Part shown: positions 9,110 through 45,279 of the stretch, in pieces
How the letters are laid out: each line of letters opens with the position of its first letter
Numbering within the stretch: the stretch's first letter is position 1
NCBI RefSeq assembly: GCF_020696975.1
Contig: NZ_JAJGBK010000003.1
Coordinates: 1-64,000 of the forward strand
Origin: Methanoculleus sp.
GTDB lineage: Archaea; Halobacteriota; Methanomicrobia; Methanomicrobiales; Methanoculleaceae
Length of the DNA: 64,000 bases
Direction of reading: 5' to 3'
The notes under the pieces: generated by a model
The model's database searches: none
What the model saw: the letters and a program-made list of their open reading frames with translations, nothing else
Told to the model about the DNA's origin: nothing
Made by a program: the position numbers and the translations under genes

Positions 9110-10314
9110 TGCAATAGCAGGCCAATCGCCGCCACAAGCGTAGCCGCACCGATCAGGTCGATCAGGCTTGTGATGACAGGGATTCCAAAGTTGTCGGGAT
9201 CGAGACCATACCGGAACGAAAGGCTCGCTGTGACGTACGCCACGCCATTCACCAGTGTCATGACGACCAGACCCGCTGCAAGACTGATAGTGACCAGCAT
9301 TCCAAGCCCGGGGCTGTTTAACCCCATGAGCACCGCCGCACCATGCGCGATGAGCGCCAGCAGTGGAAGCAGTATCAACGTATAGAGGTAGGAAATAATA
9401 AAATGATGCACAACGCCGCGCTCGGGGAGAAATGAGGGGTTGAGCTCGCCTGTGTGCATCTCTGTCGATAGACGTGACCCGAGGATGCCGCCTATCGACC
9501 CGAGGCCGCCCGTAAACGGCGGTATCAGGACGAGAAAGACCGCAAACGCCACCAGACGGTCGAGGTTGAGCGAGTAGGTCAGCCCGGCCAGCGTGCCGAG
9601 AGCGCTGAGCGGGATGAGGAGAAAGAGGTTCTCCCGGACGATCGCTCCGATCCCTTCCTGCCGGTTGCGGGTGTAGAGGAGGGTGGCGACGGCGACGGCA
9701 ACCGCGACGGCCCCGGCCACCAGGCGCACCCAGGGAGAGAGGAGCATGATGAACGTCGCGGAGAGGACGAGGATAGGAAGCGTGACGATATCCCCGGAGG
9801 TGGTGACGGTCGGGGCGGCGATCATATCGAGGTCGAGGCCGTAGCGGTAACTTGCAAGGGCGACGACCAGCGTAATCCCCATCACCACAACCCCCGCGAT
9901 AACACCGCTCGTGACCGATATCAGCACAAGATCGGTGACGCCCACGACGGGATACCCGAAGAGCAGGCTTGCCGCGTAAGCGAAGATGCCAAGGACAAAC
10001 GCTATGAGAATCGTCACCACAAACGATGCGCGGATGTTGTCGCCAAGGACGGAGCCCTCCGCAAACTCGATGGAGAACTCTCCAAGATGCATCGACGAGG
10101 AGAGGCGGGATGCGAATACGCCGGCGATGCTCCCCCGGGTATGAATGATCGACGGCAGAAGTACCATCAGGCCGGGGATCAGCCCGAGGACTTCACGGAC
10201 GGAACCAAGGTAGATGCCTGCAATGCTCAGGACAGCAGCGCTGAGGAGCAGAGCGCCAAGGCCGGTGAGAATCAGGCGGCTCTGGCTGGATAGGCCCTGC
10301 TCCATCACCATCAC
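9106..10314 (-). CDS. MgtE-like divalent cation transporter (two membrane domains)
   Basis: A 402-residue polytopic membrane protein with two homologous MgtE-type transmembrane halves. The hallmarks recur: PGLMVLLPSIIHTRGSIAGVFASRLSS in the first half and FTGGLGSIGGILGSRLSTEMH in the second, each followed by a hydrophobic bundle. Bacterial MgtE has one such domain plus N-terminal and CBS domains; here the cytosolic sensor is absent and is perhaps replaced by the coupled PhoU/TrkA-C protein. Predicted function is Mg2+ or related cation transport. The start is ambiguous among GTG 10314, ATG 10311 and ATG 10305. Confidence 0.85.
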   Translation of the reverse strand: MMVMEQGLSSQSRLILTGLGALLLSAAVLSIAGIYLGSVREVLGLIPGLMVLLPSIIHTRGSIAGVFASRLSSSMHLGEFSIEFAEGSVLGDNIRASFVVTILIAFVLGIFAYAASLLFGYPVVGVTDLVLISVTSGVIAGVVVMGITLVVALASYRYGLDLDMIAAPTVTTSGDIVTLPILVLSATFIMLLSPWVRLVAGAVAVAVAVATLLYTRNRQEGIGAIVRENLFLLIPLSALGTLAGLTYSLNLDRLVAFAVFLVLIPPFTGGLGSIGGILGSRLSTEMHTGELNPSFLPERGVVHHFIISYLYTLILLPLLALIAHGAAVLMGLNSPGLGMLVTISLAAGLVVMTLVNGVAYVTASLSFRYGLDPDNFGIPVITSLIDLIGAATLVAAIGLLLQ

Positions 10315-10326
10315 CGTCCATTCCCA

Positions 10327-11280
10327 TCAACTCCGATACGGGATCTCCAGCGCCGCCAGGTCGGCCGGCAGGATCACGTCTCCCTCATAATGTCGCTTTG
10401 CATCGCGTATATGGTTTGCTGTGCTTGTATAACGGGAACTTATGTGCATCAGGGCAAGCATACGGGCATTTAAGGCCGCTGCCGCCTCACCCGCTTCCCC
10501 CGCGGTGGAGTGCAGGACTTCGCGGGCACGGCTGCTCTCCTGGTCGTCGAACGTGGCATCGTGGATCAGGAGATCCGCATCCCGCATCATCGCGGCGGTA
10601 TCGGGCTGGCCCTGAAGCGGGCGAGTGTCGCCGGTATAGACAATCTTCCTCCCCGGGCGCGGATCACCCAGCACGTCGTCGGGCCGGACTGCGGTCTCGG
10701 TGCCGTCATGGACGACACGGACCTCCTCCCCGCGCTGGAGCCGCCCGAAGAGCGGGCCCGGCGGGACACCGAGCGCGATGGCACGCTCGCGGTTGAATCT
10801 TCCCGGCCGCTCGTCCTCCTCCATCACGTAGCCGAGCCCGGGGATGCCGTGAGACGTCGCGAACGCCCGGACGGTGTAGCCGTTGAAGGGCACGACTGAG
10901 CCGTGCTCGAGGGCGTGAGCGGTGACGGGGAACCCCCGGGTGTGGCGGCTTATCCTCTGGACGAGGTCGATGAACTCGCCGACCCAGGGCGGCCCGTAGA
11001 TCGGGAGGGGGTCTGTCCGTCCCATGAACGCAAGCGTCTCGACGAGCCCGAAGACGCCGAGAAAGTGGTCGGCGTGCCAGTGGGTGATGAAGATGGCGTT
11101 CACGGTGAACCCGGTCCGGGCACGCATCATCTGCTGCTGGGTGCCCTCGCCGCAGTCAAAGAGCAGGGTGTCAGAGCCCCGCCGGATCAGGACCGAGGAG
11201 GGGTTCCTCTGCGGCGACGGGAGCGCTCCCGCCGTGCCGAGAAAGTGGACATGCAGTGTCTCGCCGGCTATACGAACCAC
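10327..11280 (-). CDS. rnz: Ribonuclease Z (tRNA 3'-end endonuclease)
   Basis: A 317-residue tRNase Z of the metallo-beta-lactamase fold, which cleaves the 3' trailer of precursor tRNAs. It shows HFLGTAGALPSPQRNPSS at the N-terminus, the zinc motif THWHADHFLG (HxHxDH) near residue 63, the flexible-arm region in the middle, YTGDTRP near residue 215, and the final histidine in LMHISSRY. Length and motif order match archaeal RNase Z. The start is GTG at 11280, and the gene overlaps the end of the upstream TIM-barrel gene by 13 bp, so the two are probably co-expressed. Confidence 0.95.
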   Translation of the reverse strand: MVRIAGETLHVHFLGTAGALPSPQRNPSSVLIRRGSDTLLFDCGEGTQQQMMRARTGFTVNAIFITHWHADHFLGVFGLVETLAFMGRTDPLPIYGPPWVGEFIDLVQRISRHTRGFPVTAHALEHGSVVPFNGYTVRAFATSHGIPGLGYVMEEDERPGRFNRERAIALGVPPGPLFGRLQRGEEVRVVHDGTETAVRPDDVLGDPRPGRKIVYTGDTRPLQGQPDTAAMMRDADLLIHDATFDDQESSRAREVLHSTAGEAGEAAAALNARMLALMHISSRYTSTANHIRDAKRHYEGDVILPADLAALEIPYRS

Positions 11281-39805: not shown

Positions 39806-39960
39806 TGATTTTAGAAGTTTTCCAATCTAATTTTGAAAAGGAACTTTTTCCTTCGAGATTGTTCTCTCACGATCCTACTCGGCTTCCGGGGATAAAGAGT
39901 CTCTTCATGCATGGTTATCGCATCCCGAACTCAAGTCCGATTCAGGTTTCATATCTGCCG

Positions 39961-40627
39961 TCATGCTTGGGGAGCATAGTTGCATGAAAGTGTGGGGTCG
40001 CTGAGAGTGATGTGCCGCCCGAAGAGATCTTGTTTTTTGGCCCATGGGTGTACAGCGTCGTGAATGGCGACCTTGGCTCTGAGGTCGCCATCTTCGATGG
40101 TTTCGACAAGGATGTTCTGGCCGAAGACAGAGTAAGGCAATGATACAACCCGGATGGACATCAATGACAATGTCGATGGTACCGGGAACCATGAATTTGT
40201 GTCGCGGGCCACCTATCATATTCCATGATTTAATGTAGAAGGACCGTGAGGGGGAGGTGTTGTCAAAAGCGAGAGGGGCGTCGGTGATGTAGCAGTACTT
40301 GACTCTGACGTGAGGAACCCGACAGGAACATAGGTTTTCAAGGGCTCCGCTCTCAAGCACGTACTTGAGGGATGAGGATGCCTCAAACCGCTTGTTTGTA
40401 TTTGCCCCGGTGTGGGGTGACAGTTTGAGGAGACCGAGGGCTAGGAACTTTTTGACAACCTGGACAACGTACTGGCGCGAGACTCCGACGATGCGGGCGG
40501 TCTGGCTCTGTGTGTGGTTGCCGGTGGCGAGGAGTGTTAAGATGCGTTTTGTGGTGGGATTGAGGGTTCTGAGGGGGAAGGAGCCAAAATCGTGCGGGTG
40601 GATCGGGATGATGCCATTCTCGTCCAT
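39961..40627 (-). pseudogene. Frameshifted helix-turn-helix protein
   Basis: The 5' two thirds (from 40627) read as a coherent protein with an HTH at about residues 28-70 (RILTLLATGNHTQSQTARIVGVSRQYVVQ). After IDIVIDVHPG, near 40135-40150, coherence moves to another frame that reads VSLPYSVFGQNILVETIEDGD and runs to a stop at 39961. The remaining tail in the first frame is Arg/Ser/Cys-rich nonsense. A single frameshift best explains this. The family looks plasmid- or virus-like, with an N-terminal HTH and a downstream alpha/beta domain, but I cannot name it. Confidence 0.7.
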
Positions 40628-41322: not shown

Positions 41323-41595
41323 ATGCCAGCGTGTAAACCGAGCACACACAGTCCCCAGCTCGACACGATCCGGATGGTCGAAGAGTTCATTCAGGAGCAC
41401 AGCGGCGAATACAAACGGCGGGCCTTGTGGGAGAACCTGCCGAAGAAAATGATGTACCAGACGTTCAAGACGATCATCGAGTATCTTCTGGAATCGGGGA
41501 AGATAGCAAGCGATTCACGGGGGACGATCTGCTGGATTCACGACCCGGATATGGTCCGGAAGTATTCACTGCGTGAAGACCTGCGGTTCCGATGA
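41323..41595 (+). CDS. Putative antitoxin, winged-helix type
   Basis: A 90-residue protein overlapping the toxin gene by 4 bp, the usual layout of type II toxin-antitoxin pairs. Residues 12-70 look like a winged helix: VEEFIQEHSGEYKRRALWENLP, then TFKTIIEYLLESGKIAS and a hydrophobic wing (ICWIHDP). It is 65-70% identical to the truncated copy at 45061, so this module has duplicated. It likely binds the toxin and its own promoter. A TATA-like element (TTATATTTACTTATAC) lies about 25-40 bp upstream. Confidence 0.75.
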   Translation: MPACKPSTHSPQLDTIRMVEEFIQEHSGEYKRRALWENLPKKMMYQTFKTIIEYLLESGKIASDSRGTICWIHDPDMVRKYSLREDLRFR

Positions 41596-42227: not shown

Positions 42228-43346
42228 ATGGCTGATCCAGTTTATCTTGTCTCTAAAGATGATACCCTGGTACCGATGCGAGAGACACTCTACGAGTATG
42301 AAGCCGAACTGCAGGGGCTCCTTGCGAACCATCCGGAACTCCTGCTCTCAAATGCCGATGATGCACCGGCACTCCTGCTAATGAAGCAGGAAGTCGGCGT
42401 CCCCGGAGACGAGAACGAAGGGGACAATTTTTCCCTCGACCACCTCTTCCTTGACCGGGAGGGGGTTCCCACACTCGTCGAGGTGAAGCGAAGCACAGAC
42501 ACCCGCATCCGGCGGGAGGTCATCGGGCAGATGCTTGACTATGCGGCAAACGCCGTGGCATACTGGTCGATTGACCGGCTGCGAGGGATGTATACTGCAA
42601 CGTGTGAAAAGCGGGGAACCGACCCGGATGAGACTCTGGCAGACTTTCTCGAAAGCACTGTCGATCCCGATATGTTCTGGGAGAAGGTGAAGACCAACCT
42701 CCAGGCAGGCAAAGTGCGCCTGATCTTCGCCGCCGACACAATTCCCAACCGTCTTCGACGGGTTGTCGAGTTCCTGAACGAGCAGATGGATCCCGCCGAA
42801 GTACTGGCGATCGAGGTGCGCCAGTTCACCGGAGACGGTGGCGTGCGGATGGTCGCTCCCAGGGTCATCGGCCAGTCGGCAAAGGCAGAGCAACGGAAAG
42901 GTGCTCCGGATGTGCGGAGGTGGAATGAAACCGAGTTCATGGCCGAACTCGGACAGCAACACCCCACGTTGGTCTCTGTAGCAAGAAATCTCCTGGCATG
43001 GGCGAACAATCAGCGCCTTTACATCTGGTGGGGCAAAGGAAAGCATAGCGGGTCTTTCTTCCCCCTGCTCAGTACACCCGGCAGGAACTATCAGGTCTTT
43101 GCGGTGTGGACGACCGGCAAGATCGAAGTCGATTTCAAATACCTGAAAGGATATCCCCCATTCACCGAGGAACAGACGCTCCGGGAGTTCTTCCACAAAC
43201 TCAACGCAATCCCTGGGGTTCGGATACCCGAAGATGGGATTCACCGTCTCCCTAGCATTCCACTCAAAGTGTTAGCGGATGAGGCGAACTATCGCAAATT
43301 CATCAATGCAGTAGAGTGGGTATATCAGAAGCTCAGGCAGCAGTGA
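42228..43346 (+). CDS. NucS-like / PD-(D/E)XK nuclease-type protein
   Basis: A 372-residue protein from ATG 42228 (MADPVYLVSKDDTLVPM). Residues 25-130 resemble the restriction-like core of NucS/DUF91 proteins: FSLDHLFLDREGVPTLVEVKRSTD, giving D-x(n)-E-x-K, then VIGQMLDYAANAVAYW. A second region (about 235-365) is mostly beta and contains YIWWGKGKHSGSFFP. It is probably a DNA-targeting nuclease of the accessory genome, but biochemical target is unknown. It is monocistronic between a decayed toxin module and the CARF-like regulator. Confidence 0.75.
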   Translation: MADPVYLVSKDDTLVPMRETLYEYEAELQGLLANHPELLLSNADDAPALLLMKQEVGVPGDENEGDNFSLDHLFLDREGVPTLVEVKRSTDTRIRREVIGQMLDYAANAVAYWSIDRLRGMYTATCEKRGTDPDETLADFLESTVDPDMFWEKVKTNLQAGKVRLIFAADTIPNRLRRVVEFLNEQMDPAEVLAIEVRQFTGDGGVRMVAPRVIGQSAKAEQRKGAPDVRRWNETEFMAELGQQHPTLVSVARNLLAWANNQRLYIWWGKGKHSGSFFPLLSTPGRNYQVFAVWTTGKIEVDFKYLKGYPPFTEEQTLREFFHKLNAIPGVRIPEDGIHRLPSIPLKVLADEANYRKFINAVEWVYQKLRQQ

Positions 43347-43413
43347 TCACGAGAGGGTGGGGGTGCCTCAACTTCACCTCCAGCACCCTAGTCGCCAATC
43401 AATCCTTGAGTAA

Positions 43414-44238
43414 TCACTTCACCAATCCACTCAGATAAGCAACATATTTTCCGGTATCTGTATGCGAGACGTATATATTTCTCCCAATCCTCTCTCGTCT
43501 AATATATCCCTTCTTCTCCAACTTTTCAAGGATTGTTTTATTCAGTTTCATTAACTGACGACTTTGAAGGGTTCTTCTTTGGTTATCCTTGTGTTTATCG
43601 CTATCGGTCAGTTTAATGTCATCACAAAACAACTCTTGAAAGCCCTCGACCTGTAGTTCTTGTAACTTGCCTAGTAGATCCCTGGTGTTAACTTTCTTCT
43701 CCTTTTCACAGAGATATGCCAGTATATTCATACCGATGGGGTCTGGCATGTCGAACTTCAGGTTGGTCAAGTAAGTGACCTTATTACTGTCACAGATGCT
43801 GAGGCCATGCTCCTGCCGCTTATCCGGCTCGTCGGGATAATCATCAGCATGGACGTAGTAGACCTGCACATCATGATGCATGCCAACGAGCGTTGCAGCT
43901 ACGGAAGTCAAGCGTCCGGCTGCAGACATATTCATCTGAATCCTGTTTCCTTCGGCCTTCTCCCTGACAATAATTTTTGAAATGCTTTTTGTTACTTCAA
44001 GGAAGTCAAATAAATTTACTGACTCGCACCTTACGTCGATTCCTCTTTTTAACAGGGTGTCTCTCACTTTGTTCGCGTAGTGGCGCTGGTTATCAACCAT
44101 TTTCATTGCAGCAGAAGGATCATGCCATCGAGTGAGAATATACACTCGATCTGCATTACTATCTTCAAACGGTTTCACCGCTCGGTCATACTCATGACCG
44201 AGTGGAATAATATGGACGACTTTTTCCATCCCCGCCAT
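43414..44238 (-). CDS. CARF-like/winged-helix regulator (DUF6293/HFX_2341-like)
   Basis: A 274-residue protein. I choose ATG 44238 since AGGTGG sits 7 bp upstream; ATG 44229 (MEKVVHIIPLGHEYDRAV) is the alternative. The first 150 residues form a Rossmann-like CARF-type domain (ADRVYILTRW near residue 30, NMSAAGRLTSVAATLVGMHH near 105, the usual ligand-binding loop). The C-terminal 120 residues are a winged helix with MKLNKTILEKLEKKGYIRRER. The arrangement resembles Csa3 and haloarchaeal HFX_2341 proteins. No CRISPR array or cas gene is present. Codon use is more AT-rich than the flanks, suggesting transfer. Confidence 0.75.
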   Translation of the reverse strand: MAGMEKVVHIIPLGHEYDRAVKPFEDSNADRVYILTRWHDPSAAMKMVDNQRHYANKVRDTLLKRGIDVRCESVNLFDFLEVTKSISKIIVREKAEGNRIQMNMSAAGRLTSVAATLVGMHHDVQVYYVHADDYPDEPDKRQEHGLSICDSNKVTYLTNLKFDMPDPIGMNILAYLCEKEKKVNTRDLLGKLQELQVEGFQELFCDDIKLTDSDKHKDNQRRTLQSRQLMKLNKTILEKLEKKGYIRRERIGRNIYVSHTDTGKYVAYLSGLVK

Positions 44239-44267
44239 CTCAGTCCCACCTGCACCCACAATATGCT

Positions 44268-44296
44268 AATGACGTTAACGATGCCAATGACGTTAA
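44268..44296. promoter_or_regulatory. Two direct repeats in the divergent promoter of the CARF-like gene
   Basis: AATGACGTTAA occurs at 44268-44278 and 44286-44296, an 18-bp period (about 1.7 helical turns). It sits between the regulator (leftward) and the small nuclease gene (rightward), where an autoregulatory operator is expected. Confidence 0.55.
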
Positions 44297-44347
44297 GGAG
44301 AATGTGTATATCACCTAGAAGAGTCCTTCTATTTATCAGGTGTGAAA

Positions 44348-44638
44348 ATGACTCGATCACCTTCTAAGCGTGGTATAGACTACGAAAAACAGAAATCAGC
44401 CGAACATGGGGCTCGTCATGTCGGCGGCCCTGGCAAACATGACTATGAGAGAGGAACAGCCCGAGGCGAAGTCAAGTGTCGCACTTCCCCTGTAACAAAG
44501 CCCGAGTTACAGCGACTGGTGAAACAAAAAGGGATCACTGAGGTAGACAGCAAAGGGGGCTACACGGGCCCTGCAGTTGAATACCGGGATCGGTATCGTC
44601 CGAATGTAAAACTCTTCAAGCGTGGGAAAAAGATCTAA
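44348..44638 (+). CDS. Small PD-(D/E)XK nuclease-like protein
   Basis: A 96-residue protein from ATG 44348, with AGGTG 5 bp upstream. The central pattern GGPGKHDYERGTARGEVKC places an Asp and a Glu-x-Lys at nuclease-like spacing, as in minimal archaeal resolvases or Vsr-like enzymes, and GIDYEKQKSAEHG supplies an N-terminal Glu-containing helix. The end is strongly basic (RDRYRPNVKLFKRGKKI). I infer a DNA-acting nuclease or nuclease-derived binder; no named family is recognised. It lies divergent from the CARF-like regulator and is followed directly by a membrane protein. Confidence 0.55.
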   Translation: MTRSPSKRGIDYEKQKSAEHGARHVGGPGKHDYERGTARGEVKCRTSPVTKPELQRLVKQKGITEVDSKGGYTGPAVEYRDRYRPNVKLFKRGKKI

Positions 44639-44651
44639 AGGAGAGGATACT

Positions 44652-44843
44652 TTGGCTCAAAGGATTGCAGGAATGGGATTCTCTGCATCGGGAATCGTAG
44701 GCGTTCTCATTCTTGCTGGTATTTTCTTATCCGTGACTGATGTAAGCCGGATAGTGGGTCAGATTGCCATTGGAAGTGGTGTTGTCATCGGTGTAGCATT
44801 GGGAATACTTGGCGTTGTGGGTGTTGCCTCAAGGTATTGCTAA
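44652..44843 (+). CDS. Small two-helix membrane protein
   Basis: The ORF track begins at GTG 44622, but AAAGGAGAGG at 44637-44646 sits 5 bp before TTG 44652, which gives a 63-residue protein (reads LAQRIAGMGFSASG). That ribosome-binding site decides the start. Two hydrophobic helices, SGIVGVLILAGIFLSVT and VVIGVALGILGVVG, suggest a membrane hairpin. It follows the small nuclease by 13 bp. A role as membrane effector or accessory protein in the same unit is only inference. Confidence 0.6.
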   Translation: MAQRIAGMGFSASGIVGVLILAGIFLSVTDVSRIVGQIAIGSGVVIGVALGILGVVGVASRYC

Positions 44844-44949
44844 ACAACAAGCCCGCATTTTTCAAGATTCACTAACTTGACCGAAGTGCTTGGACGGCCC
44901 TCTCACCGGCCTTGAGGGTGTAGGTGGGTGTCGGCTCTTACCCCTCGCA

Positions 44950-45060: not shown

Positions 45061-45279
45061 ATGTCAGCAAGCGCCGGCTCCGCCCACTCTCCCACACTCG
45101 ATACAATAAAAACGGTCGAAGACTTCATCCGGGGGCACAGCGGCGAATACCGCCGCCGGGCGCTGTGGGAACGCCTGCCGCGAAAGATCATGTATCAGAC
45201 GTTCAAGACGATCATCGAGTACCTCCTGGAGTCGGGTAAGATCGCCATCGGAGCGCAGGGTGTCGACGGCACCCACTAG
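45061..45279 (+). pseudogene. Truncated second copy of the antitoxin
   Basis: From ATG 45061 the protein MSASAGSAHSPTLDTIKTVEDF matches the antitoxin at 41323 through VEDFIRGHSGEYRRRALWERLP and YLLESGKIA, then diverges into IGAQGVDGTH and stops. The missing end and the missing toxin show a breakpoint near 45240. It has its own ORF start and an upstream inverted repeat, so it may still be expressed as a shortened DNA-binding protein. Confidence 0.7.

Follow-up and report, generated by a model that had tools for sequence, protein, structure and literature searches.

A CARF and winged-helix regulator with tandem 9-bp repeats as a candidate controller of exchangeable defence cargo in Methanoculleus

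In bacteria, several families of controllers keep suicidal immune operons silent, and RptR, a repressor of bacterial defence islands, has three imperfect 9-bp direct repeats 31-58 bp upstream of its own start codon (PMC12255303). For the archaeal proteins that join a CARF domain to a winged helix-turn-helix (CARF-wHTH) outside CRISPR, the role, the DNA site and the signal are unsettled. One of them, MM_0565 of Methanosarcina mazei, binds the 60 bp of its own promoter, with an affinity that falls if any one of the three 20-nt thirds is cut away, and 'no distinct binding motif' was identified (PMC7465815). When HFX_2341 of Haloferax mediterranei is over-expressed, many metabolic genes change and cas genes are repressed (PMC11434293), and the sites of Csa3a are palindromic (PMC8699464). 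Here we describe a locus in a 64,000-nucleotide stretch of Methanoculleus sp. (contig NZ_JAJGBK010000003.1, positions 1 to 64,000; hereafter the window) where a CARF-wHTH regulator gene stands head to head with genes for a candidate mini-nuclease and a small membrane protein, with tandem 9-bp repeats in the intergenic gap. Comparisons were made in a survey of 232 genomes of one class, with genomes labelled G and loci labelled L. We interpret the locus, with a probability of a little under 0.6, as a locally regulated defence module of the abortive-infection type, in which a CARF-wHTH controller governs nuclease and membrane cargo.

The regulator (43414-44238, minus strand, 274 aa) is a predicted local transcription regulator of the HFX_2341/DUF6293 family, CARF3 clade. 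It scores well over the gathering cut-offs of PF19810 (HFX_2341_N; 119.6 bits vs 30, E=1.3e-34) and PF22665 (DUF6293 winged helix; 74.3 bits vs 27, E=1.2e-20) and matches the CARF3 model of PADLOC (PDLC01861) over its full length (residues 2-273, E=8.7e-116), which bears out the CARF-like, winged-helix protein that a preliminary description made from the DNA letters had placed here. Alignment of 10 regulator homologues showed that G108-R109 and a PLGxExDRAV stretch are kept throughout. In the relative at L030 (G033, ~10580-10600) a one-base insertion near the regulator start breaks the usual ATG frame; either an upstream GTG or TTG start is needed there or the assembly contains an error.

The two small genes are closely linked to this regulator. 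Strong matches to the membrane protein were found in seven of the 232 genomes, all seven divergent to a regulator of a single clade (hypergeometric 5e-12; an eighth match is marginal, E=7e-4), and the nuclease was found in eight, six of which have the clade regulator alongside (hypergeometric 1e-8), both values ignoring shared ancestry. Regulator, nuclease and membrane protein recur together as one conserved block in four genomes, which answers a check that the preliminary description had proposed. The nine regulators with nuclease, membrane-protein or cyclic oligonucleotide-based antiphage signalling system (CBASS) partners form one clade with support of 99/98, within which the cargo varies. 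G103 and G108 carry the membrane protein without the nuclease, and behind the nuclease of G180 stands a different protein of 252 aa, also with two hydrophobic segments. In G196 the cargo position, divergent to the regulator, is occupied instead by a CD-NTase (PADLOC Cyclase, 4.1e-117) and Cap15 (PF18153, 8.5e-42); with a CD-NTase plus a Cap effector in one operon, this relative has a complete CBASS pair. The regulators of L049 (G180, nuclease-linked) and L166 (G196, CBASS-linked) are sisters with support of 100/96. As is expected of immune-operon controllers, the regulators of the clade thus stand beside different operons of this kind and have operator-like repeats of their own, although of the four cargo types (nuclease with two-helix protein, two-helix protein alone, nuclease, CBASS) CBASS is the one already known as an immune operon. 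Beyond the clade, many other DUF6293 regulators (L005, L017, L021, L119, L142, L175, L190; L007, L124, L168) are divergent to other conserved genes, encoding a protein of ~120-140 aa that begins MRTxLQxL and/or one of ~245 aa, often with FGPTYxSKxLRFA; one member of each was scanned and gave no Pfam match. At L194 (G068) a divergent DUF6293 regulator (9791-10639, minus strand) lies beside two large open reading frames (852 aa and 538 aa) that by eye resemble type I cas genes.

In the gap between the divergent genes of the window lie four tandem 9-bp direct repeats, ATGCTAATG, ACGTTAACG, ATGCCAATG and ACGTTAAGG (44263-44298), of an ATGYTAANN-like type. They were found by a repeat search and are conserved in register in the four genomes that share the block, suggesting a putative operator. 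Counterparts of three to four copies occur at the divergent relatives in G050, G180, G196, G103 and G108, the CBASS version in G196 included. When nine whole genomes were searched with the pattern (three repeats, at most one mismatch), the module site was matched in eight; G050 gave zero matches because its repeats are more diverged. Away from the module the pattern gave a single stray with one mismatch (G108), and a reversed control pattern gave two matches in total. In the wider family, self-similarity at a lag of 9 was significant (p<0.05) in 27 of 69 non-redundant DUF6293 upstream regions, compared with 0-4 regions at the other lags from 5 to 15 and with 22 of 286 control upstream regions at lag 9 (Fisher 1e-9), a statistic that is partly post hoc, since the repeats had been spotted beforehand in 25 early loci and in more by eye, and most members of the wider family were fetched once the repeat idea already existed. 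Among the examples listed the repeats lie mostly within ~60 bp of the regulator start codon. Tandem 9-bp repeats were seen beside DUF6293 regulators across the family (for example at L113, L116, L124, L138 and L142), with a repeat sequence that varies by clade.

The regulator probably binds these repeats, and for the DUF6293 family at large the 9-bp repeats offer a candidate binding motif. By analogy, tandem repeats could also be the cause of the binding behaviour of MM_0565, should that protein belong to this family and have such repeats. Just beyond the repeats stands a TATA-like sequence, GTGTATATC (44304-44312), read from the letters as a possible promoter of the nuclease gene; a TATAT-containing stretch is kept there in four genomes. 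Placed where they are, the repeats would fit autorepression of the regulator at its promoter, and for the cargo either repression or activation. In the open-access papers searched we found no report of 9-bp repeats for DUF6293 or of the present gene combination.

The first cargo gene (44348-44638, plus strand) encodes a protein of 96 aa with a net charge of +13, which the preliminary description had called a small PD-(D/E)XK-like protein. This assignment is upheld: E13, D32 and the E41-V-K43 motif are invariant in 9 homologues (the E and D placed by eye), and hhalign aligned the nuclease with Mrr_cat domains from the same order with a score of 31.9 (probability 75%, E 2.4e-5), compared with a maximum of 17.7 in 60 column-shuffled controls. 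The aligned stretch begins shortly before the ExK motif and reaches almost to the C-terminus. The protein combines the conserved E, D and (D/E)xK residues with the profile similarity to a known family by which the PD-(D/E)XK superfamily is recognised. The window nuclease does not match PF04471 (Mrr_cat) at the gathering score, and one homologue reaches E=0.1. The nuclease was not found in viral contigs, phages or plasmids, nor by sequence in the PDB, and a scan of genome contigs returned the G033 copy alone.

The second cargo gene (44652-44843, plus strand) encodes a glycine-rich protein of 63 aa with two hydrophobic segments (residues 10-28 and 38-56), a candidate membrane effector. The two-helix membrane protein of the preliminary description is confirmed, with TTG 44652 as its start and a ribosome-binding-site-like GGAGAGG just upstream (44640-44646, plus strand; GGAGA kept in four genomes). 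We take this TTG and not GTG 44622 as the conserved start because in G002 the reading frame ahead of the TTG is not conserved. Neither small protein has a match in Pfam, NCBIfam or PADLOC, or one better than E 0.1 in PHROGs. The ratio of nonsynonymous to synonymous substitution rates (dN/dS) is 0.08-0.19 between the nuclease copies compared and 0.11-0.31 for the membrane protein, well below 1 in both cases, arguing that these are genes maintained under purifying selection.

The three genes form a block of ~1.45 kb (43409-44867) that BLASTN also finds in G033, G011 and G002, where it is 83-91% identical. In the window, G033 and G011 the block lies at the same pycA-flanked site, in G002 it has other flanks, and the surrounding DNA differs; the interval from pycA to the block holds a type II restriction-modification (R-M) system in G011, a NucS-like gene in the window and neither in G033. 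The block is AT-rich as had been claimed, with 45.3% GC vs 60.0% for the window, and a similar dip is present in most other carriers and hardly any in G103. The accompanying claim that the transfer was recent is open to doubt: the pycA-flanked site is common to three genomes, and the synonymous divergence of the nuclease copies (dS mostly 0.25-0.38) implies that they did not move very recently, except perhaps for the closest pair (dS 0.06). The NucS-like gene and the module lie between the two copies of a 166-nt direct repeat (41347-41512 and 45085-45250). We found no case for these copies as mobile-element ends, since they are 77% alike and lie inside wHTH-like coding fragments. An open reading frame further upstream (39905-40627, minus strand), whose N-terminal part scores over the HTH_29/HTH_28 cut-offs, resembles a degraded transposase or regulator gene.

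These observations lead us to propose a model for the module. The regulator would bind the four 9-bp repeats in the intergenic gap and repress itself, and would hold back the operon for the nuclease and the membrane protein as long as no ligand or stress signal reached its CARF domain. Upon such a signal the operon would be expressed, the two-helix protein might damage or depolarise the membrane, the highly basic mini-nuclease would cut nucleic acid, and the infected cell would stop. The regulator-plus-repeats part is modular, with regulators of the same clade carrying a lone membrane protein, the nuclease plus another membrane protein, or CBASS. DNA binding at the repeats, toxicity, the signal, derepression rather than activation, and a function of the module against viruses are what we infer from these data; the defence function is suggested through guilt by association, most strongly by the CBASS swap. 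The regulator and its repeats have the look of a swappable switch that turns on antiviral defence in archaea. We see an even chance that this clade of DUF6293 CARF-wHTH proteins is an archaeal class of plug-in controllers of immune operons, which recognise tandem 9-bp repeats, take exchangeable cargo (CBASS, a lone two-helix protein, or a mini Mrr-like nuclease plus two-helix protein) and respond to a signal independent of type III CRISPR.

The candidate defence module without CRISPR that the preliminary description had put forward holds in this form: the three-gene unit recurs, several relatives have defence genes close by, and a sister regulator with an operator of the same kind faces CBASS. 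The defence genes near the module are type I R-M (G050, G196, G108), a TIR protein (G108), Avs2 (G103) and type II R-M (G011), noted as individual sightings and not as an enrichment over random loci. No cas gene was noticed by eye among the open reading frames between 38 and 49.5 kb. Several points weigh against a defence module of this kind. The clade is known from nine genomes, all of one order, which limits phylogenetic independence and makes the hypergeometric values optimistic. AlphaFold models of the regulator and one relative (predicted local distance difference test, pLDDT, 41) and of the nuclease alone (pLDDT 45) are too weak for a fold search, and the membrane protein is without known relatives. 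Archaeal activators often bind just upstream of TATA, and activation of the cargo is possible because the repeats sit just upstream of the TATA-like sequence of the nuclease gene. Finally, some relatives of the nuclease lack this regulator next to them and stand beside an RmrA-like XRE-M78 gene (G186, G185) or a type III R-M gene (G239).

The best-surviving alternative, which we nonetheless hold to be unlikely, is a toxin-antitoxin or element-maintenance unit with the regulator as repressor or antitoxin of a toxic membrane protein and nuclease, which would persist by addiction and have no real antiviral role. The genes are tiny, the divergent gene is repressor-like, the AT-rich block is found at two different sites, and nuclease homologues lie beside an RmrA-like and PIN pair. 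On the other hand, the regulator has a conserved CARF domain of the ligand type, its sister is paired with CBASS, and defence genes lie near several copies; addiction and defence are also compatible with each other. At L048 (G186) and L050 (G185) the nuclease homologues are divergent to the XRE-M78 gene, with a PIN-like gene behind and intergenic regions that look alike. The idea that the XRE-M78 protein is a substitute switch for the nuclease in these two genomes is weakened, as the G186 protein matches RmrA (a PADLOC call made on G186 only) and lies beside the PIN-like gene; the RmrA-like and PIN-like genes of G186 are possibly a toxin-antitoxin pair of their own.

It is improbable that the protein is a global metabolic regulator of the HFX_2341 type with hitch-hiking neighbours, an alternative suggested by the shared Pfam families and by the metabolic and cas effects of HFX_2341 (PMC11434293). 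The regulator scores 12.3 bits vs 500 required for the HFX_2341 equivalog NF051475 and is patchily present within its own genus, the operator pattern is almost confined to the module, and the neighbours are conserved across families. The preliminary description had stated that its proposal would fall if the regulator clustered with metabolic DUF6293 proteins and its neighbours were never conserved with it; the second half of this does not apply, two of the three neighbours being conserved.

Sensing of cyclic oligoadenylate (cOA) from a type III CRISPR system, with the regulator as a Csa3-like accessory effector, is likewise improbable. The CARF fold family, the weak similarity to Csa3 (TIGR01884, E=0.0009) and the presence of Cas10 in G050 speak for it. 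Yet the Csa3 score is 18.6 vs a cut-off of 60.2. Seven genomes with a clade regulator were searched for Cas10 (G103 and G108 were outside the search), and six of them gave no match (G000, G002, G011, G033, G180 and G196, some of these assemblies being incomplete), which makes a resident type III system an unlikely source of cOA as the general signal. Motif 1 of Csa3, which binds cyclic tetraadenylate (cA4) and contains two Phe (PMC8844856), is absent from the regulator in a comparison at the sequence level, an alignment read against the motif; PLGHEYDRAV stands in its place. At the place of the second Csa3 motif (PMC8844856) the regulator does have a G-R pair.

That the NucS-like gene (42228-43346, plus strand) and the three-gene block are one system, as the preliminary description had it, is scarcely credible, for although the gene adjoins the block in the window and its PD-(D/E)XK-like product resembles the phage-defence candidate PDC-S11 (PADLOC E=9.7e-13), it is missing from the other three block carriers (G033, G011, G002) and its close relatives (G029, 91%; G008 and G013, 41%) all sit in genomes without the nuclease. 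We regard it as a neighbour outside the module. Its C-terminal 62-67 residues match alone at 64-65% in three places (G036:C3:219729-219929, G010:C18:23583-23768 and G007:C15:774034-774219), which are either a separable domain or gene remnants.

With a near-unique operator-like site per genome and interchangeable cargo that includes CBASS, the defence module proposed here is a directly testable system. It opens the questions of which repeats the regulator binds, which ligand would release it, and whether a membrane protein of 63 aa and a nuclease of 96 aa can arrest a virus.

How does the module compare with known systems? Its membrane protein shares two transmembrane helices with the CBASS effector Cap15, the partner of the sister regulator, and with the Panoptes 2TMbeta protein (PMC12657230), but its 63 aa leave no room for a ligand-binding beta-barrel domain, and it matches no Cap15 model. 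With the Mrr_cat restriction endonucleases the nuclease shares the E...D...ExK signature and a collinear C-terminal half; it differs in having only 96 aa and no fused DNA-recognition domain, and falls below the Pfam cut-off. Csa3 has the same domain order, CARF then wHTH, whereas Csa3a sites are palindromic and Csa3 has cA4 motif 1, which the window regulator lacks, and no cas genes were seen alongside the latter. HFX_2341/DUF6293 regulators share the CARF and winged-helix domains (PF19810 and PF22665), and MM_0565 shares the CARF-wHTH architecture and binds an own-promoter region of ~60 bp. The window regulator differs from HFX_2341 and MM_0565 in being tied to a small effector operon, and we found no repeat motif reported for those two. 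RptR also acts on a defence island by way of 9-bp direct repeats, but it is a small helical protein for which no CARF domain is mentioned, it recognises the palindrome TAGCTA where the repeats here are ATGYTAANN-like, and homology is not indicated. CapW/BrxR, CapH with CapP and CapK with CapS (PMC13373217) are likewise small regulators beside exchangeable immune operons, CBASS included. They are bacterial and are built as WYL, HTH plus peptidase and STAS-wHTH plus kinase, whereas the regulator here is an archaeal CARF-wHTH, and no homology to them appeared among the matches listed (for PADLOC, 25 of 33). Each ingredient is of a known kind, be it CARF-wHTH regulators, CBASS, mini-nucleases or controllers of immune operons; for their present combination we found no paper among the open-access ones searched. 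By analogy, the regulator may best be read as a dedicated, local controller of abortive-infection-type cargo and an archaeal counterpart of the bacterial CapW, CapH-CapP and RptR.

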